Part shown: positions 33,724 to 64,000 of the stretch, piece after piece | Layout: every line of letters begins with the position of its first letter | Numbering within the stretch: the first letter of the stretch is position 1 | Origin: Trigonopsis variabilis | Lineage: Eukaryota; Ascomycota; Trigonopsidomycetes; Trigonopsidales; Trigonopsidaceae | NCBI GenBank assembly: GCA_003707065.3 | Contig: PPXM03000002.1 | Location: 1,116,001 to 1,180,000, forward strand | Reading direction: 5' to 3' | Length of the DNA: 64,000 bases | Made by a program: the position numbers and the translations under genes | The notes under the pieces: generated by a model | What the model saw: only the letters and a program-made list of their open reading frames with translations | Databases searched by the model: none | What the model was told of the DNA's origin: nothing

Positions 33724-35235
33724 TCACACGTTCTTGTATTTTGGTGCGACGGTTCTCCAGGTCTTGAAAAAGGTAGAGAAGAAGACCAGAGCCAGCCAAG
33801 GATCCTTACTTCCAGTTGTGGCGGAAATCGAGTGCATTGCCATCTGAGGGATTCCCATATCAACAGTTCGAGCCCCAGTGATTGCGCTCATGATGGGACC
33901 GATGCTTGAGCCACTTGGCTCGCCATTTGGGGCCTGAAAAATTTGTAGATTGTAGTTGATGAGCTGTGCGATATCTTGAATAATCGAGTAGCCAACTCCA
34001 TCCGTAGCAACATCAAGGTGAGGATCATGTTCTACAGTCATGCCCACATTTAACCGAGGCGAAGTGGATGGACTGTAGGCACTGATGAAGTTTGGGTTCA
34101 CCGCATGCGTACAGTCAGCAGAGATAATTAGTGATTTCGCCCATACCTCGGCGACTGAAGACAAATGCTCAGGATCGAGCGCTTTCAAACAGCGGTCGAC
34201 ACAGCTATGCAGCAGGGTGCCAAAAGCACCTTGTCGAGTGACGCTTCCAATTTCCTCATTATCAAATAGGACGACCATGTTCATTCCTTTACCGGCATCT
34301 TTTGTATTCGAGGAAAGCAAACCGTCAACTGCGGGAAGACAGCAAAGTCGGTCATCCAACCTCGGACAAAAGAGAAACTCTCTGCTCAGGCCACCAAGTG
34401 TTCCAAATTGAGCGCTCACCAGCTCTAGTTCTATATTTGCAATCTGATCAAGGTTAATTTTGAGAGCGTCACAGACTACAGCAAGCAGTCGTGGGTTATG
34501 TTTTCGCACTAAGGAAGATAAATGGGTATCTGATTCAAGCTCTTCAATAGAGCGAAGACCAAGCCTTTTCATTTGGGTCTCTAGGGCCCTAAATCTCGTG
34601 GATTCAAGGCCAATAATGGGAACCATTCTGCTTTCCTGATCGAACGGATCTTCTGTCGGCTTTGCAAGATAAGACGGTAATGTGGGGACTTTCCCAATTG
34701 GTTCTTTGATGTAGAGTAGTCGATAGATGAGCTTGCCATTCTCTTTAACCAAGACTCGCCCAGCCAGCGCAAGATCCCTATCCCACCAAGAAGAACTTAG
34801 CCCGCTAGCATATGGTGCCACCGCTAGTCTAGTGTATCCTTCTTCAGGTTTCACTTTGGAGACTGGCTTTAATTTACTTGTCAAAGCATCAATGTGGCAT
34901 CCAATGACCCCTAGACCAGATCCTGGCTCATATTCATTCCCCACAACAAACATGCAAAGCGCCGATCCATTTCTGACCGTAAAATATTTCCCTCCAGGTA
35001 CGATCTCGTCGTCCCATTCATCTCGTTCAGACAAATATTTATATCCTGCCAACAACAACTTCTTGGTCAAAAACTCGGTCGCATGAAAGGTCGTAGGACA
35101 AGTATTGGTAAAATCTAGAAAGGTCTGTCCATACTCCAAGTCTTCGCTCTTGATCCGTTTAATGTAAGCCGCTGTCAGGCTGACAGGAGCATCGATATCC
35201 TTCTTCCCTGGCTCTACTTTGGCTCGCCTGGGCAT
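33724..35235 (-). CDS. M18 aspartyl aminopeptidase, copy 1 (Ape1/Lap4 type)
   Basis: 503 aa, one exon. Metalloprotease of clan MH, family M18. Zinc-site motifs are GCHIDALTSK (His), CPRLDDRLCC (Asp) and VVLFDNEEIGS (Glu-Glu), with the C-terminal SAISGTG-like stretch replaced here by MAMHSISATTG. FLDFTNTCPTTFHA near residue 40 is the Ape1-type start of the catalytic fold. These enzymes release N-terminal residues and, in yeast, Ape1 reaches the vacuole by selective autophagy (Cvt pathway). The N-terminus is short (about 35 residues), and a yeast-style propeptide is not evident. The next gene is a clear paralogue on the same strand, 350 bp away. Confidence 0.92.
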   Translation of the reverse strand: MPRRAKVEPGKKDIDAPVSLTAAYIKRIKSEDLEYGQTFLDFTNTCPTTFHATEFLTKKLLLAGYKYLSERDEWDDEIVPGGKYFTVRNGSALCMFVVGNEYEPGSGLGVIGCHIDALTSKLKPVSKVKPEEGYTRLAVAPYASGLSSSWWDRDLALAGRVLVKENGKLIYRLLYIKEPIGKVPTLPSYLAKPTEDPFDQESRMVPIIGLESTRFRALETQMKRLGLRSIEELESDTHLSSLVRKHNPRLLAVVCDALKINLDQIANIELELVSAQFGTLGGLSREFLFCPRLDDRLCCLPAVDGLLSSNTKDAGKGMNMVVLFDNEEIGSVTRQGAFGTLLHSCVDRCLKALDPEHLSSVAEVWAKSLIISADCTHAVNPNFISAYSPSTSPRLNVGMTVEHDPHLDVATDGVGYSIIQDIAQLINYNLQIFQAPNGEPSGSSIGPIMSAITGARTVDMGIPQMAMHSISATTGSKDPWLALVFFSTFFKTWRTVAPKYKNV

Positions 35236-35586: not shown

Positions 35587-37167
35587 CTAATGCAAATCGA
35601 CAAAATTCTTATCCACCTCAAAATATAAATCAAAAAAGCTCTTGAAAAACTCCTTGCCCAGATAAGGGTCTTGGCTCCCAGTCACTGCTGAGATTGAATG
35701 CATTGCCAATTGGGGCATTCCAACGTCAGCACATCGCATGCCCGTAGCCGCTGATAGCATAGGGCCTATGGTTCCTCCAGAGGGGAAATCGTTTCGTACA
35801 TGAAAAGTCTGAAGGGAATTCTTGCCTCGCCTTGCGATCTCCTCGATCACTGACCATGAAGTTATATCTGAAGCTGTCCGACAGCTTGCATCGAGCTTGA
35901 CCGTCATACCAACATTCAGATGGGGCCGGTGGTGTTCAAGGTAACATTCAACAAAATTAGGATTAACCGCATGGGTCACGTCTGCAGATAGCAAGAACGA
36001 GTTTGCGTAAAACTGTGAGGGCGAGGATGCACGGTCTGCATCAAGGGCTGATAGCGTCCTTGAAAGGACCGATTGGAAAAAAGTGCCGCCCGCTCCCATT
36101 CTTGTTTTGCTGCCTATCTCTTCATTGTCGAAAAGAGCAACTCCAACTATACCATTTCCTTCATAGGAGCTTTCTAATAAACCATGCACTGCCGCAAAAG
36201 AGCAAAGACGATCGTCTAGTCGTGGGGAAAATATGAAATCGCGGTCAAGACCGCCAAAGGTAGCATGCTGGGCGTTGACCAACTCCAGTTCAACATTAAC
36301 CAGGTCATCAACTGGAACACCAACTTCTTCTGCTACCCTTGCCAGTAGTCTAGGGTTGTGTTTTTGAAACAGATTAATCGGTCCCTGAGATTCAGAGAAC
36401 CCAAGGGACTCCAAGATCTCGCGATCACGGCTCGACTCAAGTCCTATGATCGGTACCATCTGAGTCTCTTGATTAAACGGTGGCTCTGCCGCTTTTCCAA
36501 AATGCTCAGCTAGCGATGGAATCTTCCCAATTGGCTCCTTAACATGCACTAGCCGGCCCCTCAAAGAACCATCGCTCTGTCGCACAAGAACGCGACCAGC
36601 CAAACACAGATCTCGGTCCCACCATCGGTCACTCAACGCTCCTCCGTAAGGGGCCACCGCTAACATTGTATAGCCTTCTATAGGATCCTTCTTCGAGATT
36701 GGTTTCAGCTTAGCAGTCAAGGCATCAACATGACATCCCGTAATTGCACATCCATTTCCAGGTTGATAATCAGACCCGATAGACAAGGCAATTAAACCAG
36801 TACCATTTCTAGTCACCAGATACTTCCCACCGGCCTTTATGCGATCTTTCCAGTCCTCTCGTTCATTCACAATCTCGTATCCTCCATCGACAAGTTTGCT
36901 CTTGAAATACTCAACCGCGTGGAACGTCGTGGGACATGTGTTTGTGAAATCGATAAACGCCTGGCCAAACTCTTCCGCAGCCTCAAAGCCATCAACGTCG
37001 TGACCTAGTTCCTTGGCACATCTCGTCAATTGAGTTCTGAGGCTATCCAGAGATACCGAATCGCCAGTTTTTCGGGCCTTATCGATTGTAGACAAAGCCT
37101 CTGTTAGTTCCTGGACTGCAAATCGTCCGGAGTGATACATCAGAGACTGTTCTGACACCGCAGACAC
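35587..37167 (-). CDS. M18 aspartyl aminopeptidase, copy 2 (Ape1/Lap4 type)
   Basis: 526 aa, one exon, tandem to and in the same orientation as the previous gene. Same motifs: FIDFTNTCPTTFHAVEYF, GCHVDALTAK, FSPRLDDRLCS, ALFDNEEIGSKTR, and MAMHSISAVTG near the end. The N-terminal 70 residues form a helical extension (QELTEALSTIDKARK) absent from copy 1 and closer in position to the propeptide of yeast Ape1, which drives its assembly and autophagic delivery. The two copies are diverged well beyond a recent duplication. Which one is the vacuolar cargo is an inference: this copy, from its N-terminal helix. Confidence 0.93.
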   Translation of the reverse strand: MSAVSEQSLMYHSGRFAVQELTEALSTIDKARKTGDSVSLDSLRTQLTRCAKELGHDVDGFEAAEEFGQAFIDFTNTCPTTFHAVEYFKSKLVDGGYEIVNEREDWKDRIKAGGKYLVTRNGTGLIALSIGSDYQPGNGCAITGCHVDALTAKLKPISKKDPIEGYTMLAVAPYGGALSDRWWDRDLCLAGRVLVRQSDGSLRGRLVHVKEPIGKIPSLAEHFGKAAEPPFNQETQMVPIIGLESSRDREILESLGFSESQGPINLFQKHNPRLLARVAEEVGVPVDDLVNVELELVNAQHATFGGLDRDFIFSPRLDDRLCSFAAVHGLLESSYEGNGIVGVALFDNEEIGSKTRMGAGGTFFQSVLSRTLSALDADRASSPSQFYANSFLLSADVTHAVNPNFVECYLEHHRPHLNVGMTVKLDASCRTASDITSWSVIEEIARRGKNSLQTFHVRNDFPSGGTIGPMLSAATGMRCADVGMPQLAMHSISAVTGSQDPYLGKEFFKSFFDLYFEVDKNFVDLH

Positions 37168-47483: not shown

Positions 47484-50400
47484 ATGACTGAAGGCCCGTA
47501 TTTCAGTGTTCGAGTGAATCACATTGATAGTTACCAGACGACGTCTAGTGATTTCGATCGTGAATATCGGACTGTGCCCATAGTACGGATCTTTGGCAAG
47601 ACAAAGATTGGTCAGAATGTTTGTATTCATGTGCACGGTGTCTATCCTTATCTTTTTATTGAATACAGAGGCTCATTAGAGTCATCAGACGTGGATGAAT
47701 ACATCTCGACTCTAAAGAAAGCAATCAATGTCGCTCTATCCAGGTCAACTAAAGATCCGGAAGTAGGTCTAGATTATGTGGCCGAGATTATCATATGTAA
47801 AGGATTTCCTTTCTATGGTTATCATTATGGTTGGAGCCATTACTTGAAGATATACATGCTGAATCCCCTTCATATGAGCCGATTGGTCTCGGCGTTGGAG
47901 AAAGGGTCTATTCTTGGTACCGTTTTCCAGCCTTATGAGGCTCATATACCTTATCTGTTACAATTTCTATGTGACTTTAACCTTTATGGCTGCTCGGTAA
48001 TGGATCTTTCGACAGTGAAATTTAGATCTCCCATTCCTCAATGTCCTTCAATAGTATCCAGCACCGTCGCTTCATCATTTAGCGAAGTGGACGATTCACA
48101 GTTCTGGACCAGCCGAACTATTCCTTCTTCCTCTATTTTAAACAGTGTCAGATACCCTCGCGTCTCTTACTGTGAGCTGGAAATCGACATCTCGGCTGCT
48201 TGGATCCTAAATCGACAAGCAGTTAGACAGCGTTTGACCCACCTCGACCGATTTGAAAGCAAATCTTCATCTAATAATCTGCTTCCTAGCCTTCTTGAAC
48301 TATGGGAAGCTGAAAGGAATCGGAAAAGAATGGACACTTTACCTTTATCTGACGTTCCAGAACCTGACTCTTCTCAATCCTATGAATGGAATAATATAGA
48401 TTACTTGAGAAAGATGCTCAAGGATAAAATCAATTCTGACACTTCAACCAGTGAACCTATTCTTGAATCGTCCTATCCTACTACCTTTGCGTCGGTCGAT
48501 TTCATGTTTAGACAAGAGCGATTTCCTCTATCGTCTCAAAAGCGACCAGCGGAATCTTCTCCAGAGGAGCAGCTTACTAAACGACAGTGTGTAGACTTAC
48601 CTTCTAGTCTGGATTTTACAATATCTTCTTTTGAAGCTTCTCAAGAACAGAATAGAGAAGCTTCTGCTTCTCAAACTCATTCATCTAACGACAATATTGC
48701 AAGCGCAAGTGAAGAAGCATTGCAAAAATCTATAGCAACTGCTATTAAACGAGTCTTCAATATTGACGGTCCCTGTTTTATCGTTCCCCCATTTGATCCA
48801 TCTTCCGTGTCGTCTTCTGAAACCTATTATATTGAACCTTTCTATAGTAACGATGACGACGTCCCTGAGAAGCCATTTGAACTGGCAGGAAAATTATTCC
48901 AGCTAAAAGGATCAGGGCCGCGTTTTCTGAAGGATTTTGAGTTTTTCAAGCTTCCTGCTGTAAAACGCGCTGTTTCTGGTAATGTTTCCACACAAACTTG
49001 GGTTTACTCTCCTAGTCCGCCTAGTCGCCAAACGGTCACCCGCGATCTTTTTTCCTCAAAGAGGGATCATCGTCAAACTAATCATTCCTCTCAGATATTA
49101 GGGCCTACTCAGAAGATGTTTCGTCCCCAAAACCGAAGTTGTAAGACCGGAGCCTATTCATCTTTAGCTTATACCGAAATGAGTTCATTTGCGTTAGAAA
49201 TCCATGTTGACTGCCGAAAAGGCTTCCGACCGGATGCTTCTCAAGATCCTATTCAGTTTCTATTCTATCGATTTCTGTTAGATTCGGCCAAATCCAACCA
49301 GGATGAACGCAATGTCTTTCAAGGAGTTCTTTATTGGTCGGATAGATTTAAAGGATGTTATTTACCTCGAATTGATGGCGTCCGATTCATTGAATGTACA
49401 GATGAGCTTGATATGATGATGAGATTGACGAAACTCGTTCGTGAATATGATCCTGATCTTCTGGTTGGTTATGAAATCCACAGCGCTTCCTGGGGATTTT
49501 TAATCGAACGAGCATTATCAGCTTATGAATATGATATCCTCTTAGAGTTATCTAGGACATCAGATTTCACTCGCCAGAAAAGTAATGACCGATGGGGATA
49601 TACTCATGCGACTTCATTTCGGTCCACTGGCCGGTATATGTTCAACATTTGGAGGATCTTAAGAAAAGAAGTGAACCTATTAAGCTATTCATTGGAAAAT
49701 GCAGTTTACCATATACTAAACATCAGAACTCCTCATTATTCAGACGATCACCTCGCCCTTCTCTTCAATGCGGGCCCGCTTAGTGATATTCTATTGCTGA
49801 TCGAGTATTACATGACCCGTTTAGGTCTGGAGATGCAGGTGGCTGAAGCCCGAGAGCTCATCACTAGAAACTGGTAAGTTAGTCAGGAAGGTATGCTAAT
49901 GTTTAGTGAAATGGCAAGGCTGATTGGTATTGACTTTTATTCGGTATTTTCAAGAGGTTCTCAATATAAAGTAGAGTCGTATCTCTGTCGATTATGCAAG
50001 CCGGAGTGCTATGTTCTAATCTCTCCAAACAGGCGTCAAGTCGGCTCGATGAATGCCCTGGATTGTATTCCTTTAATTATGGAGCCAATTTCAGCGTATT
50101 ATAAGGGCCCTTTGCTGGTGTTAGACTTCCAATCGCTTTATCCATCGGTGATGATGGCTTACAATTATTGTTACTCTACATGTCTGGGACGAGTCAAAGA
50201 CTGGAAAGGGAAAAATAAACTTGGGTTTATTGATCTAGATCTACCTCCGGGGACTCTTAGAGCCATAGGAATGAAAAACATAACCATTTCACCTAATGGA
50301 ATGGCTTTTGTGAAAAGTAATGTCCGACGGTCTCTGCTGTCTTTGATGCTTTCCCAAGTATTGGATACTCGCGTGATGGTAAAGAGGGGCATGAAAGAAG

Positions 50401-51695
50401 TCCAGAGCGATCCAGATCTATTCAGAGTGTTTAACAACCGTCAGCTGGCGTTGAAATTGGTTGCAAATGTCACTTATGGATATACGTCGGCCACTTTTTC
50501 TGGCAGGATGCCATGCACTGAAATTGCTGATAGTATCGTTGAGACAGGGCGGCAGACACTTGAAGATGCTATGGATTTTATCCGCTCCAATGAAAAATGG
50601 AAGGCAGAGATTGTGTATGGGGACACCGATAGCTTGTTTGTCTATCTCCCAGGACGCTCAAAGCAAGAGGCCTTCGAGATTGGACAAGATATTGCTAATA
50701 AAGTCACGGCCAGAAACCCTAATCCTGTCAAGCTTAAATTTGAAAAGGTGTATCTGCCTAGTTTTCTTGTCGCCAAGAAAAGATATGTCGGCTATAGTTA
50801 CGAGGGCTTGGGCCAAAAAGATCCGGTGTTTGACGCAAAAGGAGTGGAGACCGTGCGACGGGACGGGACGTTGGCCGAACAGAAAATCGAGGAGAAGTGT
50901 TTGAGAATTCTTTTCGAGACTGGAGACCTGTCTAGAGTCAAACGATACTTCCAAGAAGAATGTCAGAAGCTGTTGAACGGCAAGGTCTCTTTATTTGATT
51001 TCTGTTTCTCCAAAGAAGTCAAGATCGGAACGTACAAGAATGAGAGTTCCATGCCACCGGGAGCGAAATTGGTTATGAAGCAAATGGAGCAAGATCCTAG
51101 GGCTGAAGTTCAGTACGGTGAGCGGGTGCCTTATGTTGTGGTCGCTGGACCTAAAAACAGCCGGTTGTCGGACCGGTGTATAACTCCGGCTGAGTTCGTG
51201 TCAAATGGCTTTTACAGACTTGACGTGGATTACTATATGCTTAAAAATATAATTCCTCCAATGGAGCGGATATTCAACTTGGCAGGGGTGCGGATTGCCC
51301 CTTGGTACATGGAGATGAGTAGGAATCGCAAGTTCCAGTCGATGATTTCAATGGCCCAGACCAGTGGCATGAAGAACAGTCTCCTTACATTTGTCAAGAG
51401 CAGCACTTGCATGAGATGTAATAGTGCTGACAACGTCATCGATGGACTCTGCAAAGATTGCCTTGATGATAAAGCTGGCACTAGCTATTATATGAACGAA
51501 GAGTGTCGCAGGTATCAGCAGAGGCTGGTTGAGTTTCACGAGATTTGCCAGCAATGCTCCAGCATTCAACCGTTTCAGCTAGTGGGATGTACTAGCCATG
51601 ACTGTCCAGTATATTATTCTAGAACAAGAGCTCATGGATTATGGGAAAACAGTGTCAAAACAAAGGATACTGTCTTGGCTCGACTCCAATGGTAA
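47484..51695 (+). CDS. REV3: DNA polymerase zeta catalytic subunit Rev3
   Basis: Two exons (47484-49873 and 49907-51695) around a 33-nt intron; about 1392 aa against 1504 in S. cerevisiae. The start is the ATG of MTEGPYFSVRV. The N-terminal domain has IVRIFGKT and HVHGVYPYLF. The B-family polymerase motifs are complete: A, DFQSLYPSVMMAYN (near residue 870); B, LKLVANVTYGYTSATFSGR; C, VYGDTDSLFV (near 1033). The C-terminus has two cysteine clusters, CMRCN...GLCKDC and CQQC...C...C, the second ligating the Fe-S cluster that binds Pol31/Pol32. Pol zeta extends past DNA lesions in mutagenic translesion synthesis. The catalytic Asp residues are intact. Confidence 0.96.
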
Positions 51696-51913
51696 GGCTA
51701 GAGTACTGTGGAGAGGTGCATTTGTATTTTACATTCATTTAATTATCGGGCTGTTATTTTGATTTCTTGGTAAGCCATTTATTTGTAGAGGCATCCCGTA
51801 AACATCACACAAGTGCCCTGTCGCAGGATCGTTCCTGACAAGGTTCCAGTTACTCGTGCTCATCAGTGACATCCCAATGACTTTGGGAAGCCAACCTTAG
51901 TTGGACTGATGAT

Positions 51914-53885
51914 ATGCCTAGTACTATTAGACGCTTGGATTTGCGGGTGATTGATAAATTGAAATCGTCGAACTCTATCCCTTCCGTGGAAGCATGCGTG
52001 AATGAATTGGTAGAGAATGGTAAGAAGCATCCATATATGATCTAACTTGGAACAGCGCTTGACGCAAAGGCGGATTTAATCAAGGCTTACATCGACTTCA
52101 ATCCATTTTGTATTACTGTCTGTGATAACGGACATGGGATCTCTTTCAAGGATCTAGCTCTTATTGGAAATCGCCATATGACGTCCAAGATAGAAAATCT
52201 TGAAGATCTGAGCGACTTGACTAGTCTTGGTTTTAAAGGAGAGGCTCTTGCTAGTATAGGGGATGTGTCACTAATGACCATTGTCACTAGGAATGATGAA
52301 CGATCATACGTATCTAGGATCTATACGAGCAGCCAAGTTTACCTAGGGGAAGCGACTGAAGAACAAAGCCTAGACTGCAAGGGGACATCCATTACAGTTG
52401 AGAATTTCTATTACAATTTACCAGTACGTTACCAGATCTTACAGAAACAAAGCGCCGATAAGATATTAAGCAGCATTAGAAAGGTTCTCATTACCAATGC
52501 TCTGCGGTTTCCCAATACTACCTTTGAACTTTATAGAGCTGATTCTCTTGTTTTCAAACTGAAACTGCCTGATAGTGTTCCCGATAAAGATGAGGAACTT
52601 GCCTTAGTCCTTCAACAGACTTATAACGATCACATTCTATTTACATGGAATCCTATATCTGTTATTAAGGAACCTATTTTTACCATATACGGGTTTATTT
52701 GCCCAGAGTTGGGCCAGTCTAAGGCATATCAATATATTTTCATAAACAATCGACAGTTGTCTAGCTCGAACGATATTTTTTCTAGGATCAATGGGATGTT
52801 CAAGTCATCTAAAGGTGCTCAACTTTATCCTGCTTTTGTGCTAAAGGTTGTAACGAAACTATGCTGGCCCGATCTGTGCCAGGATATATCCAAGACCATC
52901 AATGATTTTGCTTGTTGGCCTGAAGTCAAGCTTATTCTTATTAATCTATTTCGTCAATTCTCACAAAAGAATCGCGCAGAGCCTGAACAATTGGGGAGTC
53001 AGCGGGAAACTATATCTGCTGACGAGTCACCCCAGGATAATCGCACAGATGACTCTGATGTGCTATCAAAAGGGCAAGTTTCATCTAGGCTTGGATCGTC
53101 TTCACCACAGACCAGTCCAGAAGCTTCGCTATTAAACGAACTGGGTCTTAAATTAATGAGCTTTGACAGCCAGACCAAGATAGATAAATCTGCCCTGGCA
53201 AATGCTCGAGTTATCTCGCAGCTAGATGATAAGTTTATCCTTCTTTCTCTTCCCAATATTCTACTGGCTTGCATCGATCAGCATGCTGCGGATGAACGTG
53301 TTCAATTGGAACGCTTGCTATCCCAGTACTCATCCGATTGTGGTATCGACCCCCATGTCCTCTCATTAAATACGCCCTTGCCTATCTATCTATCCGACCT
53401 GGAAATTCAGCTGCTGCATCAGTTCAAAGATGAGCTCTTTTACTGGGGAATATCCTGTCAAATCGACAGTCAGGCTCATGTTTTTTGTGACAAGCTGTCG
53501 CCGTTGTTAATACCGATCCTTGATGAGCCCGTTATAAATGACCTTGTCTCGTCATTTCTGTATCAGGTTCGTGATTTACTGCATTGTCCTCGCTATCCTG
53601 ATACGCCATCGTTAATATTTACGATCAATAATGCTCCTTCTATCGTCCTTGATCTCTTCAATACGGCTTCTTGTAAAGGTTTGTGGGGATCTTTGCTTTT
53701 CTAATAGTAGCTGCTGTGAAATTTGGTGACAAATTGACTGTTGACCAAAGCAGAGAAATTGTGCAAGCGCTCGCTTGTTGCTCTTTCCCCTTTCAATGTG
53801 CTCATGGAAGGTATGTCTGTTGACTGTAGTACTAAGCTGACACTCTAGACCAACTGTTGTTCCGCTAGTTGAAAAGTTGGACTAG
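51914..53885 (+). CDS. MLH3: MutL homologue Mlh3
   Basis: Four exons (51914-52019, 52056-53678, 53708-53810, 53849-53885) give about 622 aa. The N-terminal GHKL ATPase is complete: ENALDAKA (motif I), DNGHGIS (II), and LGFKGEALASIGD (III). The C-terminal half has the nuclease motif DQHAADERVQLERL, whose DQHAADER form separates Mlh3 from Pms1, and ends FPFQCAHGRPTVVPL, which becomes readable only after splicing the two last introns. With Mlh1, Mlh3 forms the endonuclease that resolves meiotic recombination intermediates to crossovers and aids mismatch repair. It is 218 bp after REV3 on the same strand, and convergent with the a1-like gene. Confidence 0.94.
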
Positions 53886-54064
53886 TTTAGCGCTCGCTTC
53901 TGAGCCAGCTGTGTAAACTTTTACCTAAAGACTTTATACTTTGATATTCTCATAGTGTGGCCTATATTCAGATTAAACATAAATCACAGAGTCAAGAACT
54001 CCAATAATTGATTTTAGCGTCGAATAGGCCTCCTGAATTTTGGGCTTCTCTAGCCACAGCCTTC

Positions 54065-55171
54065 TTAATTCGTTTTCTTTTTTTCGCGTACTCTTCTATT
54101 CGAAAACTGACTATGATTAGAGGAAATTAAGAGACCACTTACCCAGACGTTTATCTGGTGATATGACATGCCTGTCTTCTCTGAAAGTCTCGTTTTCTCC
54201 GCATGGTTGAGGATCTTTTTGATACTGAAAACGTCAATCAATAGTTTTTTGATTTCTGCTTTCGTCATCGCATCTCCTCTTTTATCGTTGCTTGCAGGCA
54301 TTTTCTGTAGTTCAGGGCTCTCACTGACGGGCGAACCTAGGGTTCCTGTATCGAAAGACTCCCTGTCAGCAAGAGTTTTATTGATGATGGAAATGCCGCT
54401 AATGGTTGGAGCCTCCTCGTGGGCAAAGGAACCTTTTCTATTAGAATGGTCAATAATATGAGAAAACTGACCTCTCGTTGGGGCCTCATAGTTGGTAAAA
54501 GGGCCGTGGCTGGTTGAAGGACCTACATTTCTTCCTCCTTCATGTTTTTGAGATTGCCTTTTCTTCCTACTGTACTTTGCTATGGAGAGATCTGTCGTTG
54601 CGTTGCTTTTAGGAGATTGTGACTCGTCTCCGTTCGCATCACTTTCAGAGCTTTTCTTATCAGCTTCCTTTTGGAACTCCTTGAGAGCTCTCTTGAGGAC
54701 GTGTTTAAGTACTTCTTGCTTAGAGGGCTTCCCGGATGATTTCTTGGACTTTTTCTCTAGCTTTTTGCAGTATGATCTCCAGGCTGACTGTCGAGAATCT
54801 TTTTTGGAATATACGATCTCTTTGATCACGTCCACAAGTCGTGTCTCGAAACGATAAAGCAGTCTCAGATCAATATTCTCTGGTTCATCTGTGTGTGGAT
54901 CCAGTTTTCGGATCTCTTGTGTCAGTTAGAGCATAAGCTGGCTCACCTCATCTATTATATCATAGGTTTTCTGAAAATTCTCAATCAAGTTCTTATAATG
55001 ATCCCTGTAAAATTTTGGAATCAATGGAGTGTTTCTTAAGTTGACATGAGGGCTCTGCTGTAGGATTTCGGGATTGCATAATCCCATTTGCAACTCGGGT
55101 GAGTTTTGTGTTATAGTATTGACAACATCCTCTAGACTCTTTTGAGGTATATACTCATATTTGTGATTCAT
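54065..55171 (-). CDS. MATa1-like homeodomain protein (non-TALE)
   Basis: Three exons (55171-54947, 54913-54143, 54106-54065) give about 345 aa. The last intron, 36 nt, splits the recognition helix; splicing restores INVWFSNRRVREKKK, the WFxNxR core of homeodomain helix 3. Helices 1 and 2 (IKKLLIDVFSIKKILNHAEK and TRLSEKTGMSY) align with yeast a1 (FLEQVFRRKQSLNSKEK, VAKKCGITP) with no three-residue loop extension. The homeodomain is at the very C-terminus, as in a1. A long Ser/Lys-rich linker precedes it, and the N-terminal 75 residues are unique. It likely acts as the partner of the alpha2-like protein encoded 1.6 kb away. It is divergent from the HMG gene, which mirrors the MATa1/MATa2 layout of yeast. 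Confidence 0.88.
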
Positions 55172-55422
55172 TAGTAATTGCGCTAACGTGGTGCAAGTAG
55201 GTTTTTCAAATTTGTACTATAAGATTCGGTTATACACGATTGACCTGGCATAGAATTATGGCCTTGGGTTGAATGGATACTCTCGACCGTTATTATTTAT
55301 GCGAGAACAAAGACTTTACTGAATACGGTTAGCCGCAACGAAACAAAGAACGATGCGACTTAGAACAAGGGCATAAATACAATGCACAATGATGCTTTCT
55401 TGACGTTTGCAAATTTTTAGAT
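55172..55422. promoter_or_regulatory. Bidirectional promoter of the a1-like and HMG mating genes
   Basis: 251 bp separate the two divergent ATGs. In S. cerevisiae MATa1 and MATa2 also share a central promoter. I see no clear TATA box or known operator. Confidence 0.5.
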
Positions 55423-56245
55423 ATGGATAGGCCGAAAAGACATATTACTATACCAAATAAAGATATCGTTTTGACTGATATCCTACTTCTTGGGGAACGC
55501 GGATATACAGTCATCAGTGATGTTACCAAGGTTCCATATGCTTTGCCTAGAGGGTATAAGTTCGCATTAGTGAAAATTAAGAATGATGCAGAAGAAGAAT
55601 TGTACGTATGATGATCTTGGACAGTCTGACATTTTTAGAGATTCTCCTCCTGCTATTAGCTATCCCCTATGGCATATGGATACTGACGATGAAGATTATT
55701 CTGATGATCTGAAGGACGATTTCGAAGGTGGTTCTGAAGAGGGAGAGAATGTTTCTACATATGAAGATTGTGAACCTGATAGTCCATCAGACAGTGAACC
55801 AGATGTTTCTAATGAAGATATTGATAATGTAGCCGAGAATGAGGTGCTCCGCAGACTTCGAAAATTTAAAGTGACGAAACCACCAAGACCGAGGAACTCC
55901 TTCATTATTTATCGAAATCATAAGCAAGCTGACCTTATGGCACAAGGTTATACGTGCCTTGAGTTGTCCGGCATTATTGGCAGAGTAAGGAAAGTCTTTG
56001 GCCTATCTAACATCTAGATGTGGAAGGCAGAAAAACAAGAAGTAAAAGATGAATATACAAGACTTGCAAATATGGAAGCTGAGCAACATAGAAGGATGTT
56101 CCCAGAATACAAATACAATCCAAAATCAAGGCGTCGACCGAAATTTACTTTCTATGGTAGCGGAAAGTGTTCAACTTCTTTAGACTTGACGCATTCGTCT
56201 CCAAGCATTGGACTATCTGAGGAGAAAAGTTCTCAGGAAACATAG
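55423..56245 (+). CDS. Mating-type HMG-box protein (MATa2/matMc type)
   Basis: Three exons (55423-55601, 55639-55984, 56018-56245) with 37- and 33-nt introns give 250 aa. The HMG box, formed across the second intron, reads PRPRNSFIIYRNHKQADL, then ELSGIIGRMWKAEKQEV and MFPEYKYNPKSRRR. This is the MATA_HMG type: compare matMc of fission yeast, PRPPNAFILYRKEK...GEMWRNESKEV...MYPGYKYQPRK. An acidic region (DDEDYSDDLKDDFEGG) precedes the box. Such proteins bind DNA and activate genes of one mating type. The N-terminal 60 residues are not recognised. Confidence 0.92.
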
Positions 56246-56796
56246 GGCCTAACTTTAAAGAATATAAATGGAATTATTGGTGATAGGCTGTAATGTAGAT
56301 AAGGATTTTGCATGAGATTGCCACCAGATTCAGATTTCTTTCTGTTGAGATTTGTTTACCTGCACTGCAGTTCTTAATTGCCTGTCTTCGAATCAACTTG
56401 GAGATATAATACTACCGAGGAGCATAAGCCGATTCATCGCAATAATAATTCGTAAACTTTCTTATACTCAATTCACCGAATCGTCCCAATGCAAGGGGGA
56501 AAATCCGCTTGAATGGAAAACGGTTCCTCTTGAGACCAACTACAGATAATAGACATGAAATAAGTAAAACAGGGTTCAATAGTCCAATGAGGCATAATGC
56601 AATATTGCGGCTTCGCAAAGATAAAAAGACAATCACTTTGATTCTCTACTGGTGAAAATGAGTAAAAAAACGATCTAACTAACAATCAAGTCAATACGAT
56701 GATATTATAGGCTGAGAAATGCAAAAAGTAATTTCCTTCTCACATCAACATTACAAGAAACTGTCAAACAAGCAGAAACTACGGCCCATATCCTAC
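56246..56796. other. Convergent spacer between HMG and TALE homeodomain genes
   Basis: About 550 bp. No gene, and in particular no alpha-box coding frame, was found here. Confidence 0.5.
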
Positions 56797-57804
56797 CTAT
56801 TTCAACAAATGTCTTAACTCAGACGATATTCTGACATTCTGATAATGTCGTTTCCTATATATCAGATTTGTTTTATTCTGAAATGCTTACCGCGCGTTGG
56901 CCATCCTGAAGTCAGCCCAACTTCATCGATACTCACCAATCATTTATTTGTGCGATAGTAAAACCTGTAAGCCGAGATAACAGGATCTTCTCAGGCAATG
57001 TAGGATAGGGCCTTTCGCTATGGCTATCCAACCTGTTGTTAAGTCATTCCACATGAAATCTCACCATTCGAAAAGGGTCCTTATTCCATCAGGCGACAAG
57101 GATTTGCGACCAGCTTTATGTTTCGCCTTAAGTTTGCTAATCTTACCAGATCGAGATACACTTGTTTCTTCAAGCTCGAAATGACCGCGTTCATCCCATT
57201 TTGAGTATGAATATGGCGGCTGAACACGTAACAGAGAAGAATCACTACAGTCAAAAGGGAAAGGTCCTGAAGAATCATTAAGGGTGCAAGAATCCGTAGA
57301 GATAGGATTAGGTGAGTCGGAGAATTCTGCAGATCCTGGAAACTCTGAATATCCCGGAAACTCACAGAGTGTGCAAAGTTCTGGATACTCTGAGGGCTCT
57401 GTAAACTTTAGTGAGCTTAGTACAATGTCCGAAGGGAGCAATGTTGGAATGCTTCTGGCCAGGTGAGAACAAAGTAGTATCACATATCCTATCTCCATGT
57501 TGATCGAATGAACATAATCCAAATCTTCTTTGCTAAGTTCATATTGACTGATAACTGTCAGGACCACCTCGGTATCAGAAAAACTCTACTATCTAACTCA
57601 CATTGATCATTTTTCTCATTATAAAAGCATAGACATTCAAGTCACACCAAGGATCGTTAACAAGACTATGCTTAATGGCTAAAGTCGTGGACAGGTAGTA
57701 TGAAACCCTTTATTAACAGTTAGTAATACAAATATCAGCACAAACCTTTGGATCAGTAACAGTCTAGGGCTAGTTGGGGAGAAGTCTTCATCGATGTGGG
57801 ACAT
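56797..57804 (-). CDS. MATalpha2-like TALE homeodomain protein
   Basis: Six exons: 57804-57746, 57707-57602, 57567-57065, 57032-56937, 56905-56891 (15 nt) and 56854-56797, with introns of 31-38 nt; phases agree throughout and give 278 aa. The homeodomain near residues 200-260 reads SPDGIRTLFEWLDSHSERPY, then PTLPEKILLSRLTGFTIAQ and INDWMANARKRH. It has the PYP of the three-residue loop extension and an intact helix 3. After it comes NVRISSELRHLLK, which resembles the a1-binding tail of yeast alpha2 (TITIAPELADLL). The start ATG is 29 bp beyond the APN2 stop. The two last introns are inferred from homeodomain continuity. An earlier stop would result if the last one is retained. Confidence 0.85.
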
Positions 57805-57833
57805 TCGGAAGACATACAGATCTTGAACGTAAA

Positions 57834-59599
57834 CTAATTTTTCCATTTAAAAAATGTGCACCTCGTATCGGGAGAATCGGATGCACCGTAAGGGCTGCGG
57901 GTCAGTAGCGCATCACTAGCAATCGACGCACCGAGAACAAATCCAAAACGCTCTTCCTTTGTTGGGACCAGACTTTTTGGTCACCATCAGCGTGCACGGT
58001 TCGCCATGTCCATCGCAGAGAGGGGGTTTGGGCTGAGTCAACAAAGATTTCCACTTTTCGGCCGATTCAATCTTCTTGACTATGTTTGCAGTATCATATA
58101 CAGGTTCTGAGGTTTTCGAGGTCACGGGTTTATGGTCAGTAGAAGTAGCGTTAGCATTTTCCCTTTTCTCCTTTTTTGAGACTTTTTTCTCCTTTGGGTG
58201 CTCGTTCTGCTTGGTAAATTGCATCAATGATGTCTGTGTCTTCACTCCTATATTGACAGCCTTCATTTTTTTGGGGCTCGGATCGGGAGGAGTTCGATCG
58301 CTGAGCAGAGAATCATCGCTTGACTCTGACTTCCTTTTCGCCGAAGAAAAAAAAGACCGTAGAGCTCCTCTTCCTTGAAATTTTGGCAAGAATCTAGATG
58401 CCATCTTTGGAGTTTTAGAGGCCCTAATCAAAGAAGACAAGGATTGGTAGTTGTCTAACGATAGCTTCATATCGGCGTATACTGGGCAATGATCAGAGCC
58501 CTGCAAATCTGGTAAGGTATCAGAATCAACGAACCAGGGCCTAAGACCTTTGCTAATCAATATATAATCGATCCTCGATCCTTGTCGTTAGAAAGGTTCC
58601 CTGGTAGGACACGCGGGACGGGAAGACATGACGCATGGTATCATCAGATGAAAATCATGGCCAACTAGTCGAGGTGCAGAATTAAGACTTACCAAAATTG
58701 GCAGGACGACAATTCAACAGCTGGTTCCAACCTGATTGTTAAAACTGTACAAAAGAGAATATATCACGCACAAGTGAACATTCCTTTTCGTCCAGGATGG
58801 TATTCTCGACATATATCTACCAAGAGCTTATCTCTTTCGACCAGATTATCTAATAATCTTCTAGGATATGTATCCTTAAAATCCTTGATGCCAAGATCTT
58901 TCATCTTAGCCTTTGGGTCAGCTGTATCAATCTCGTCCCGAATAATGTTTATATCTCCTATCAGAATGACCTCTCTATCCATCTCCAACAGTTTTCTGAT
59001 CCGACCATCCAAAGTGTCCAAGAACAACCTACGGTAATCATCCTTGTCACCCATAGAATTTGCAGGACAGTATACGCCAATCAATACAAATAGTCCAAAG
59101 TCGAGTAAGAGGGAGCGCCCTTCCCCATCAACGTGTAATCCCGTCGTTCTGTCCATATCGGGGTAGCCTCCAATCTGATCTTTTTCAGGTAGATCTCGAT
59201 ACCGCATCTTTTCGCCGTTCAAGAGGTACCCGCTCAATCCTTCCTCAACTCTATAGGGTAAACAGGTACTCTTCCGGGTATACATCGCTACTCCGCTGTA
59301 TCCTTTCTTTGATGCATAAGTGAAAAAGGACTCAAAACCCGGGACAACAGCCATTTCATACGTCAGATCCTTGATACCAATTTTTGTCTCTTGAAAACAT
59401 ATGATATCGGCGTCCAAGATATCAAACATTCCCTTTCATCAGCTCACGGTACTTTGATTCTTACCTCAAACGTCCGGGATTGATTCCACGGGTAAAACGA
59501 AAGGATATTCCTTATCCCGCACACATTGAACGTGACAATTCGAAATTTGTCTCTCTCTTTCTTCTCTTTCATCTGAGCATCCGGGGGCAAGTCGTTCAT
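57834..59599 (-). CDS. APN2: AP endonuclease 2 (Apn2)
   Basis: Exons lie at about 59599-59460, 59425-58769, a short one at about 58730-58692, 58582-57932 and 57894-57834. The exonuclease III fold is clear: FNVCGIRNIL, DIICFQETKIG, GVAMYTRK, IGVYCPANS, LIGDINI, and after splicing SRIDYILIS and DLQGSDHCPVYA. A middle region carries QTSLMQFTKQ, a PCNA-binding (PIP) box. The C-terminus is a GRF zinc finger (CDGHGEPCTLMV...GRAFWICSRPYG...RCTFFKW), completed only by the last 37-nt intron. Apn2 repairs abasic sites and 3'-blocked ends. APN2 flanks the mating-type locus in Pezizomycotina and Yarrowia, which supports reading the neighbours as MAT genes. One intron (about 110 nt) is unusually long here. 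Confidence 0.92.
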
Positions 59600-59978
59600 G
59601 GCATCAGCATAGTGTGTAGTACACACTTCTGTAACCTCCCAACTGTCGCTTTATTCGTTCTCGCGAAGCCGATCATCTCGTCTGCATATTAGAGATGCAA
59701 TGACTGTGCAGAATCGAAGTTAATTCAACATATCCAAGGAGGTGGAGTATTAATTCATCCGATGTCGTCTTGGTACGAGGTATGGCGGCAGAAGTGTAGA
59801 GATTTCTAATTCGTGAATGTTGGAAAGGTCATCTTATCTTAATTATCTGATATAGCCGTACCCAATGACTCGAGATTTGAAGACAATGTGCTTCTATGAA
59901 ATTATATCTCAGAGTCTTTAGTATTTTGTTTCTGTTGGCATTCGGTTCATATGATACCTAAGATGGAGTGCAAGCATG
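59600..59978. other. Spacer upstream of APN2
   Basis: No gene seen. It must contain the APN2 promoter. Confidence 0.45.
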
Positions 59979-61756
59979 TCACGTGTTTCTTGCTTTTCGG
60001 AACAATCTCTCGTTAATTTGCAGAAATATCGAATATATGTCAGACCCAAACCACCTTTATAAGACTATTTCGGTATACTTTCCTCTTTGGAGCCTAGCTG
60101 AGGCCTATCGTTTAAGCTTCCCTAGTCACGCACCTGCGAGATAGTCTTCTCTTTTTAATTCAAATGTACAAAGTATTACAAACATATCATGCTTATTACA
60201 CTATTATATTTCCTTGGATAGTCTCTTCGGCCAGTTACCTCAAACTTCTCGGAAAGATCTTGACAGTCTCTTTGGTCACGTGCTTAATGTAGAGGAGATG
60301 TGTTAACTCCTTAAACTCTATAAGCGCGGACACTATGTTAACACATCTTCATCAGCACGGGCTTTCGTATATACTTCTCTTTGATGATTTTTCAATAACT
60401 GGAATAATAGTAAAAGCAAAGTTAGGTCACGTGCGCAGCTATGTGAAACCCTGTTATCTGCTAAATTTGCACGAGCCCCGAAATTCGAGTCGAGTATTTT
60501 ATTCAGCGTATTTCGTTAAATAAACTTCTCTTTGACGAGTATAGTAATACCTGTCAATTAATCCCATTATCAGATTGTGGTCACGTGCACACAGAAGACT
60601 GGGCTCCATGGTCCCTTATTTCGAATAAGACTTGAATTCTAAAATATTGGCGAATATTATTCGCCTCTGTAGTACATTTTTCTCTTTGGCAATTATAAGC
60701 TACGTGTTCGTTTAGATCCACATCGTTTATGGATCACGTGCCTCCGTTCTGAATCCATATTGCCGGTCCTTAAACCCTATAAGCGCGGCATTTACATTAG
60801 ATCTTACTTTTTTCTCTACTCTATACTAAAGACTTCTCTTTGGCACTTTTCTTAAACACCACTAATAGCCCTCCTAATAGCGGTAGTCACGTGAAACTGC
60901 GAAAACCAGATGCGCCTCTAATAGTCTCTAACCTTACAAAAACAAATAATGATGTCATTACATTTAGCATTAACTTCAATATTAAGACCAAATTACCGCG
61001 TTCTAAAAGGCGTCAGAATATATATAGATGACCCTCGCCAAGTAGACCCCTATGCTCCAGGTATAGATCACGTGAGTATGTTATTCAAGCTCAGCTGAAC
61101 CCTTCCTTGAGATCTTGATGAGCTGTTGCATAGAAATTAGTACAAATTATATCCAGTAGAGTATGATTTTCTTATTGATTATAGGCTAATTCTAAGCATT
61201 AAGTTGAGAATTCTCTTCGGTCACGTACACGCGCAATTCTGTTGATAGTCCCACCCTGGAAACATGAATACATGTATTTCTGAGTTATTTCGGGACATAA
61301 GAGGTAGCGAATAGAATCCTCTTTGTTGCAGTGTTCTAAGTAAGATGTAATTAGTTAAGCTGGTAGATATTCTCCACCGTAAAGATTAGTAAAGATTATA
61401 CTGATACATAATCTTTACAAATGGAAGCACCAGCTGTGTAAGATCACGTGCACACAAGGCACGTCGCTCCAAGTCCCTTTTAATCTCTACCTAGCTCATT
61501 CCTTTGCAAAATATTGTCAATTGTTGAACATTAACCATGCCAACTTTCTTTGATGACTTGATAAAATATATCCATTGAACCTGTAAACCCAAAATGTCAC
61601 GTGATATTTCCGTTGGACCATCCTTGTCGGGCTTAATTGGGAGTGCTCGGCTAGATTAACTAGGTTCTCCTTTTAACAATAGTAGAGTTACCGTTATCCC
61701 TTTTGGAGTATAACGAAGACTCTTCGATGAAGCCGAGGAGTCTTCGTGATCACGTG
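59979..61756. repeat. Degenerate tandem array, about 153-bp period, with TCACGTG in each unit
   Basis: TCACGTG or a one-base variant starts at 59979, 60126 (TCACGCA), 60276, 60427, 60581, 60734, 60887, 61068, 61221 (TCACGTA), 61444, 61597 and 61750. Most steps are 147-154 bp, with six of 153 or 154. A second motif, CTTCTCTTTG or close, lies 53-56 bp before the site in at least five units (60374, 60525, 60679, 60833, 61544). ATAAGCGCGG recurs at 60320 and 60779, 459 bp (three units) apart. Outside these anchors the units are strongly diverged. No coding frame fits the region. TCACGTG is the core of the yeast CDEI/Cbf1 site and of E-boxes. Confidence 0.85.
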
Positions 61757-62845
61757 ACAGCCTTCTTTGCTGCTCTCTGAAGGTAGCAATCAACATCTAA
61801 GTCAAGAGAAACCGTAACCTTCGAGGCTTCCTGTAGGCATGCCTGAACGAAAAATTGATTTAATGTATTTTATTTCGTTTCGTTGTTGAGACCCTTTTGG
61901 GCACTTCTCCTTAACAAGGTCCTCGAATTGTGATTGTCAGCTCTCTTGCTGTAAGTTCATTATTGCACGCTTCCGACTGAGTAGCTTCCGCTATTCTCTG
62001 GAGACTTCCTTTCAATCAAGACCCTTGTTCCGCAACTATCAGGGATCAGAGCCATAGATTTTGCCGTACAAGCGAGAGAACGACTTCGTGAAAGTTCTAG
62101 TTTTCAACTACAACAAATGCGTACCATTTTATATCACAATAACAAACTTAGTTCAAGTACGATTCAATGTTTTCTACTTCAATATATCATGCGTGAACAT
62201 ATTGAGATACCAAGTATTCGTTGCTGTAATTTGTAAATTACTGTACCAAATAGGAGGTGTTACGAATATCTGCTTTCTAAGATTCATACTAAAGAGGGTC
62301 ATCTATATAATACCGAGTAGATTAGAAAATCACAGATACCAGCAGCCTAGAATGTACGCAGATCTATCTCAGTTAGACTGTTGATGGCATCGCTAGTGTT
62401 AAAAAATGCTTTTTCTTTAACTGTCATCGATTTGCCTCTATAGTAGGTTATATTATGAAACCAGTTGAGCTAGCGGTCATACAAATTAAACGAATAGGAA
62501 TCTCCCATTGACAGCTACATAGAGAAAGGCGAATAACAAACGTTCTAGACAGGCAGATCTCGAAAGGACAGAACTATTCTCATAAACCTTCTATACGCCA
62601 GAATATCGCAGTGTCATTATTGTTGATTATTGTATATGACCGAGAGAGTAAGGAATATCTAGTCTCATAGTAAGAGTCTAGATCACAACACAGTCAAAGT
62701 TGAGGACTGAGAGTCCGTGTAACTTTTCCATAAGATAATAGTTATATGATGATTCTCGGAGACATAAAGGAAAAGACTCCGATCTTTAATTGGACAACGG
62801 CCGACGAGATCATCTTAGAGAGGAAACGTCCAACAACCAATTATC
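61757..62845. other. Non-coding region after the repeat array
   Basis: About 1.1 kb with no supported gene. The 107-codon plus-strand frame at 62061-62384 is AT-rich and without any family signal. Confidence 0.45.
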
Positions 62846-63537
62846 CTATTGCCATTGATTCTGATGTAAGCATAGAAATAAAGATTTAATGGTTACCTTA
62901 TCCCATTGAGGGTCTTGTATGAAAGCACAGAGAACCTTTGAGCCTGTTTGCAATAACGGATGGCCAGCAACGCTTGAATTGAGTTAGTACTTTTTGGTCA
63001 ATTGGAACCATACATTTGAAGAAATCGCTCCAAGCCTTCTCTACGATGCTCAATAACATCATCTGAGAATCGATTTGTGAACACTTTACCGGGGAGAGGA
63101 GGGATGGTAACTCTTGATGACTCGCTCTCCAGAATGTCGCGGAAGCATTCGAAATCACTGTATCTTCTTCGAACCGAAGAGGTCCTCAACTTGAACGCAG
63201 GTATATTTGTCTTCAAGTCAATAAAAGAGTCCAGCAGTGAACTTACTCTACAGACGATCTCATAATCAGTATACATCTTTCTGCCGAATCCTGAAGTTAG
63301 AGACCCAAAGATCGTGTAGCTAACCATGCGTTTGAGGATTTTTAACCTGAAGTTAGATTCAGCTTATTTGTTCCTCCAATCGCTAACCTCTATTTCCAGC
63401 ACATTCTCGGGAACACCGTAAATCTCATCAAATGTCTGTTGTTTGATTTCTGGCCGGGCCTCGAAGCTTCTAAAGGCTGCAGAGCCATCGGATTCCCGAC
63501 TTGTCGGGGTATTAAACTGATCTTTGTTAGAAGTCAT
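62846..63537 (-). CDS. SNX3: Sorting nexin Snx3/Grd19
   Basis: Six exons (63537-63388, 63346-63325, 63290-63247, 63210-63014, 62972-62897, 62860-62846) joined across 32-41-nt introns in agreeing phase; 167 aa, against 162 in human and yeast. The whole protein is a PX domain: [33 protein letters not shown] with the phosphoinositide-binding Arg-Arg-Tyr, [29 protein letters not shown], then [18 protein letters not shown]. Snx3 binds PI3P on endosomes and with retromer returns cargo to the Golgi. The 15-nt last exon is inferred; if its intron is kept, the tail differs by a few residues. Confidence 0.93.
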
Positions 63538-64000
63538 ACTGCGATAAGAATGGTTGACGGTGGGCTGAACCAGACGCTACCGCGTGTAACGGTGAGGCAA
63601 GGTGACCTTGTCTGAGGTGGATTAAGCGACAAACCATCGCAGTTAATGTACTTATAACCATACCTATGGGAATCCCTGAGAGTTTCGAATGCCTCTATCT
63701 GACGGAGAACTTCTATCTAGTACTGCTCTTTTTGTCGTACATTCGAGGGAGTTATTCTCTATTGCGAAAAGACTACTTTTTCATTTGAAGCTTAGCTTTA
63801 ATGAAGGATCATGACTATGGCTTTCTCTTCAACGCAGGAATGGTACGTGTCATTTTGAGTTTATCCGGTTCATTACACATCATGCCTCAGGTATACCTAT
63901 TATATTGATACCTCATGTACAATAGAAGACAGTTTAGGACTGAAATCTATCCTCGAGACATAATCTCATCTCTTTTTTCTGTTATCGTGAATCTCTCTAG
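63538..64000. other. Right-edge region, possible start of a plus-strand gene
   Basis: No complete gene. An ATG at 63801 opens MKDHDYGFLFNAGM and is followed by a gtacgtg donor-like site, so a first exon of a gene running off the window is possible but unproven. Confidence 0.25.

Follow-up and report, generated by a model that had tools for sequence, protein, structure and literature searches.

A contiguous mating-type locus in Trigonopsis variabilis with a1-, a2- and alpha2-type genes, in which alpha1 was not found

Described fused mating-type loci and the Trigonopsis locus

In contiguous primary homothallism, MATa genes (a1 and/or a2) and MATalpha genes (alpha1 and/or alpha2) of the mating-type (MAT) locus lie no more than 20 kb apart at positions that are not allelic (Krassowski et al. 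2019, PMC6692504). The locus described here is situated in a 64,000-nucleotide stretch of the Trigonopsis variabilis genome, called the window (C2:1116001-1180000; the genome comprises 11.35 Mb in 15 contigs). Between window positions 54065 and 57804 there are three complete spliced genes, encoding a MATa1-type homeodomain protein, a MATa2-type HMG protein and a MATalpha2-type TALE homeodomain protein. All three lie inside 3.74 kb on one contig. Neither direct nor inverted repeats of at least 25 nt occur within 51500-64000, and by DNA similarity the genome has just one copy of the locus. Because this organization fits the published definition, the locus is classed as contiguous primary-homothallic (PMC6692504). 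A second or silent MAT cassette was rejected by DNA similarity and, since the locus is single-copy and free of such repeats, nothing in the 51.5-64 kb region points to cassette or flip/flop switching. It appears somewhat probable that the organism is an early-branching budding yeast with a contiguous primary-homothallic MAT locus, in which MATa has been joined to part of MATalpha and alpha1 has been lost. Primary homothallism would then be the most likely life style.

The loci of the Lipomyces starkeyi clade and of L. lipofer are similar in that a and alpha genes are found together at the ancestral APN2/MLH3/SLA2 site and have no repeats next to them; of these three markers, L. lipofer retains MLH3 alone near MAT (PMC6692504). 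They differ in having all four of a1, a2, alpha1 and alpha2, to which HMGX is added at most of the loci (PMC6692504), whereas alpha1 was not found here; furthermore, the Trigonopsis locus is flanked by MLH3 and APN2, SLA2 being about 23 kb away. L. starkeyi is self-fertile, and the roles of its MAT genes have not been elucidated (PMC9292350). The Spathaspora passalidarum locus (a1, alpha1, alpha2) is also a contiguous mixed locus of three genes with one canonical gene unlisted, but there it is a2 and here it is alpha1 that is missing from the set found (PMC6692504). The fused MAT locus of Hanseniaspora opuntiae (MATa2 and MATalpha1) likewise recombines both idiomorphs into an incomplete set. 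The two sets are complementary, as H. opuntiae has two activators and no a1-alpha2, whereas the Trigonopsis locus has both homeodomain genes and a2 (PMC10970870).

The literature search, outside of which lay most subscription papers and supplementary figures, gave no report of a1, a2 and alpha2 without alpha1. As far as the searches show, this set is an unreported variant of known fused loci. A preliminary description of the window had called the set, with no alpha1 gene found, incomplete and unusual. The mixed locus itself has precedents, contiguous primary homothallism being a described class.

In Pneumocystis, matPc is the alpha1-type gene, and matMi is not a homeodomain a1. Like the Trigonopsis locus, that of Pneumocystis (matMc, matMi, matPi) is single and fused; it combines an HMG gene with a homeobox gene, lacks matPc, and occurs in a genome having both pheromone receptors (PMC5821091). 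The same MAT locus was present in all Pneumocystis isolates that could be amplified (PMC5821091). However, Pneumocystis belongs to the Taphrinomycotina, and its genes are intronless and, interspersed with others, extend over about 10 kb (PMC5821091). Against an origin in the Taphrinomycotina, which was considered in view of Pneumocystis, stands the pairing of a1 with alpha2, not known outside the Saccharomycotina. RPS9 adds very weak evidence in the same direction, as its top PDB hits are apparently chains from budding yeasts, ahead by just a few bits.

The three genes and their promoters

The three genes contain nine introns of 31-38 nt, all nine with GT..AG boundaries. Scripted splicing yields uninterrupted proteins of 345, 250 and 278 residues, and the outermost ends of the genes coincide exactly with 54065 and 57804. 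A branch-like motif is present in every intron, in a loose scan that listed many decoys too. By codon usage the chosen frame is the best of six in each gene with small margins: 0.005 bits per codon compared with -0.002 in the runner-up frame for a1, 0.097 against 0.012 in a2, and 0.009 against -0.040 in alpha2.

The MATa1-type gene (54065-55171, minus strand, 345 residues) is interrupted by introns at 54914-54946 (33 nt) and 54107-54142 (36 nt), the latter within recognition helix 3. The protein has a typical 60-residue non-TALE homeodomain (Pfam Homeodomain PF00046, E = 2.5e-10), in which the WFxNxR pattern of helix 3 appears as WFSNRRVREK. Mating-type protein A-1 chains 1akh_A and 1f43_A are among its best matches in the PDB, with two Hox-A13 chains ranking above them. 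When the homeodomain was compared with five yeast homeodomains, a1 gave the top score of 95.

A divergent promoter of 251 bp (55172-55422) separates a1 from the MATa2-type gene (55423-56245, plus strand, 250 residues; introns at 55602-55638, 37 nt, and 55985-56017, 33 nt). The protein contains an HMG box (Pfam HMG_box PF00505, E = 2.2e-13) of the MATA/ROX1 type, which scores 122 (z = 18.7) with Neurospora crassa mat a-1 and is clearly not of the NHP6 type (47 with NHP6A). A search with the whole protein against a protein collection returned 251 candidates, none at an E-value of 0.001 or better. The gene is assigned as a2 mostly because of its place, divergent from a1, an arrangement that this pair has in other MATa loci. 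The 551 bp that separate a2 from alpha2 (56246-56796), two genes in convergent orientation, may be the fusion junction, and no alpha1-box motif was seen there by eye or by motif.

The MATalpha2-type gene (56797-57804, minus strand, 278 residues) has five introns, at 57708-57745 (38 nt), 57568-57601 (34 nt), 57033-57064 (32 nt), 56906-56936 (31 nt) and 56855-56890 (36 nt). The Homeobox_KN (TALE) model of Pfam, PF05920, is matched over its full length (E = 1.1e-12). With the PF00046 and PF00505 matches, the whole genes, the intact DNA-binding cores and the meeting of MATa and MATalpha genes put forward in the preliminary description are all supported. The last exon (56797-56854), which presumably forms the a1-docking tail, encodes ..NVRISSELRHLLK, matching the Saccharomyces cerevisiae alpha2 tail ..ITIAPELADLL. 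Within it, NVRISSELRHLL aligns with TITIAPELADLL of S. cerevisiae alpha2, which we take to be the tail by which that protein docks on a1; the alignment score was reached in none of 5000 shuffles. The phmmer match to 1akh_B (alpha2), judged by coordinates only, spans the tail and reaches query residue 277. The tail would make an a1-alpha2 heterodimer possible. A separate TALE gene, presumably CUP9/TOS8-like, is found elsewhere at C2:922304.

Both pheromone receptors are intact single frames (STE2, 416 residues; STE3, 461 residues). Situated 107-83 bp upstream of STE2 is the sequence TTTCCCAAATAGG-ATATTAA-ACAAT, which we take to be an Mcm1-type site adjoining an HMG core. Genome-wide there are 16 copies of the pattern, compared with nine of a reversed control. 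Three of the 16 lie outside frames of at least 110 residues and no more than about 200 bp upstream of a frame of the same orientation, namely those of STE2 and two MFS transporters. The only exact copy in the window of TTCTTTGTTY, presumably the Schizosaccharomyces pombe Ste11 motif, is in the a1/a2 promoter (55341-55350, minus strand), and a copy with one mismatch is found 26 bp away (55305-55314, minus strand). If up to one mismatch is allowed, the window has 25 copies against 16.4 in shuffles, and 3 of 100 shuffles reach 25. The STE3 region has nine such copies against 1.95 in shuffles (1 of 200 reaches this number), and two of the nine lie 68-102 bp upstream of the start codon. In the STE2 region there are three, a number reached by 86 of 200 shuffles.

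Neighborhood of the locus and the search for alpha1

The left flank of the locus is formed by the 3' part of MLH3 (52178-53885, plus strand; MutL_C PF08676, E = 8.7e-9; last exon placed by eye, stop checked), which is preceded by REV3, the catalytic subunit of DNA polymerase zeta (47484-51695, plus strand; PF24065 and PF00136; E = 1e-192 to polymerase zeta in the PDB for 49893-51692). On the right, as had been claimed, lies APN2, an AP endonuclease gene with a GRF zinc ribbon (57916-59650, minus strand, in exons; PF03372 and PF06839), whose stop codon is 111 nt from the alpha2 ATG. Beyond APN2 follow a PX-domain gene, a Rad21/Rec8-like gene, APC5, a mitochondrial carrier gene, SLU7, RPS9, a WD40 gene and SLA2. 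The last is at C2:1196846, on the same contig and 23.0 kb from the start of alpha2. A loss of SLA2 was rejected on this ground, and the earlier suggestion that MLH3 and REV3 replace the SLA2 flank was mistaken. The ancestral MAT site of Lipomyces lies together with SLA2, APN2 and MLH3, and because MLH3 is beside MAT in that arrangement, the MLH3 flank is ancestral and not a replacement (PMC6692504). The locus is an ancestral ascomycete MAT neighborhood, rearranged, with MLH3, APN2, APC5 and SLA2 in one stretch.

Flanks such as MLH3 and APN2 would also suit an idiomorph, and the data come from a single strain. The species might be heterothallic, with alpha2 within or adjoining the MATa idiomorph and a partner strain carrying alpha1 at the same place. 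However, heterothallic yeasts read their diploid signal from a1-alpha2, and this signal would be lost in a species whose haploids carry a1 and alpha2 together. This explanation is considered rather improbable, in spite of the single-gene idiomorphs described in Hanseniaspora, which consist of MATa2 alone and MATalpha1 alone (PMC10970870).

The alpha1 family profile PF04769 gave no match at E-values up to 10 in the 11.35-Mb genome, and neither did a Neurospora alpha1 protein, both searches being run with no fungal positive control. As a stand-in control, the same type of search recovered the intron-split boxes of a1, a2 and alpha2 at 17.7 to 29.1 bits, including the first homeodomain exon of a1 at 20.2 bits and the second HMG exon of a2 at 21.2 bits. 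Two alpha1-box motifs of our own design gave only one low-complexity chance match in the window and the 37 kb past its end. The preliminary statement that the window has no alpha1 gene stands and is extended, within the limit of the missing positive control, to the whole genome. The genome-wide profile check that had been proposed returned no alpha1, and the locus itself proved to be single-copy.

It is unlikely, though not strikingly so, that the organism is an ordinary four-gene primary homothallic whose alpha1 lies in an assembly gap, a subtelomere or an rDNA flank, or is too diverged or intron-split to be recognized. Second MAT genes are subtelomeric or rDNA-linked in several budding yeasts (PMC6692504), and split boxes score low, as the a1 and a2 exons demonstrate. 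Yet these low-scoring exons were still found, while PF04769 gave no candidate at all. The profile recognizes alpha1 in Trichomonascus, another non-Saccharomyces lineage (PMC13130702), and the motif search was empty save for the one chance match.

The stretch of about 3.2 kb that separates APN2 from the PX-domain gene (window 59700-62900) has no recognizable gene, which is long for this compact region. No alpha1 relic was found there by Pfam in 28 open frames, the longer ones, some of which belong to the next gene. These frames showed the PX domain of that gene clearly and three other families only at E = 0.03-0.04. Rfam gave two weak matches in the 44-64 kb region, far under the gathering scores, which were taken as chance.

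The HMG profile has eight matches in the genome, representing the locus and five other genes. The surroundings were read for two of the five, on C9 and C1, the genes at C2:878 and on C8 and C4 being left out. The subtelomeric box at C9:559272, which lies 5.7 kb from the end of its contig, was rejected as a second MAT locus by its neighbors, which are WD40, methyltransferase-like and BRO1-like genes (by eye) and a Clp protease gene (by Pfam), and by an insert in the box. The gene (L055:4135-5364, minus strand) encodes, in one frame, about 109 low-complexity residues between HMG helices 1 and 2. The neighboring Clp protease (ClpP) gene (L055:8522-9289, minus strand; E = 2.7e-66) belongs to a family that is not known from most budding yeasts and may hint at the taxonomic position. 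The MATA/ROX1-type box at C1:228116 was rejected as MAT, as no homeodomain or MAT-like partner was seen nearby by eye. It is the second box of this type and belongs to a 609-residue protein (L006:796-2622, L057:3409-5238, minus strand), which might, as a guess, be a candidate Ste11-like starvation factor.

Two near-alike typical homeodomain genes (..LMKEFL.NHYP...RRQELAIQLGMTPRRVQIWFQNKRQ..) are located at C9:226949-227422 and C5:734769-734936. About 190 bp from the former, on the other strand, a 114-residue frame contains a short, garbled version of this domain, which looks like a local inverted partial duplication. Elsewhere in the window there are tandem M18 aminopeptidase genes (33724-35235 and 35587-37140, both on the minus strand) and a molybdenum-cofactor sulfurase-type gene with aminotransferase V and MOSC domains (27685-29643, plus strand), a kind of gene uncommon in budding yeasts.

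Alternative identities and the proposed circuit

Several points weigh against a fused MAT locus without alpha1. The evidence comes from the DNA sequence of one strain. PHO2 comes fairly near a1 as a match to the a1-type homeodomain (77 versus 95). ROX1 gives the HMG box a higher score (142) than N. crassa mat a-1 does (122), so that the gene's identity as a2 is not separable by sequence from that of a ROX1-like protein or the HMGX of Lipomyces. The TALE homeodomain alone scores higher with CUP9 (102) than with alpha2 (74), a comparison with one S. cerevisiae reference each that is a hint and not a strict criterion. In the PDB, alpha2 is outranked by 19 other distinct chains, each of them named as an animal TALE protein, and it is because of its tail and place only that the gene is called alpha2. 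The alpha1 searches comprised one profile at two thresholds and one protein, and their empty result is no proof of absence. TTCTTTGTTY was chosen after looking; the promoter-motif evidence is exploratory and post hoc, and is only a lead as regards regulation.

The genes could be relics or rewired regulators, in an asexual species or with another function, the HMG gene perhaps being ROX1-like or an HMGX and not a2. The RAD51 family comprises one clear gene and one weaker relative, among which DMC1 was not established, and other meiosis genes were not searched for. On the other hand, the three genes, both receptors and the alpha2 tail are all intact, and a1 and a2 are divergent as in other MATa loci. 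Such a reading is very improbable, even with HMGX genes of unknown function present at several Lipomyces MAT loci (PMC6692504).

Returning to a fused primary-homothallic locus, we infer the taxon, origin, order of expression and circuit as follows. The layout MLH3-[a1<- ->a2][<-alpha2]-APN2 would correspond to a MATa idiomorph followed by the alpha2 half of a MATalpha idiomorph. It could have been formed by one illegitimate crossover, from just past a2 in MATa to just before alpha2 in MATalpha, which would have dropped alpha1. Alternatively, and also in a single step, alpha1 may have been deleted from a four-gene contiguous locus such as that of Lipomyces.

The a2 protein is an activator of a-specific genes, and a1 and alpha2 are the halves of the diploid-type a1-alpha2 repressor. 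Every haploid cell would encode a2, a1 and alpha2 and no alpha1. In such a cell a2, probably with Mcm1, would drive the a-functions, STE2 among them. STE3 and further alpha-functions would be on by default or be activated via another starvation-induced HMG factor instead of alpha1. Once both of its genes are on, a1-alpha2 would form, end mating competence and open meiosis. It would depend on expression if a1-alpha2 is always there, as the preliminary description had suggested, or is made at certain times. It is possible, though we hold it tentatively, that this budding yeast has an alpha1-free sexual circuit, in which STE3 and the alpha-functions are expressed without alpha1 and the timing of a1-alpha2, not mating-type identity, decides between mating and meiosis. 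Within the Saccharomycotina, such a yeast would parallel Pneumocystis, whose locus has no matPc.

How primary homothallic yeasts with two programmes choose between mating and sporulation is not understood (PMC6692504). If the proposed circuit is true, alpha1 is not needed for selfing, and the locus offers a minimal set for dissecting the decision between mating and sporulation. After Pneumocystis, it would add a further example, from a different subphylum, of a fused locus without an alpha1-type gene. The gene content suggests that the yeast is self-fertile and completes its sexual cycle with fewer switches than usual.

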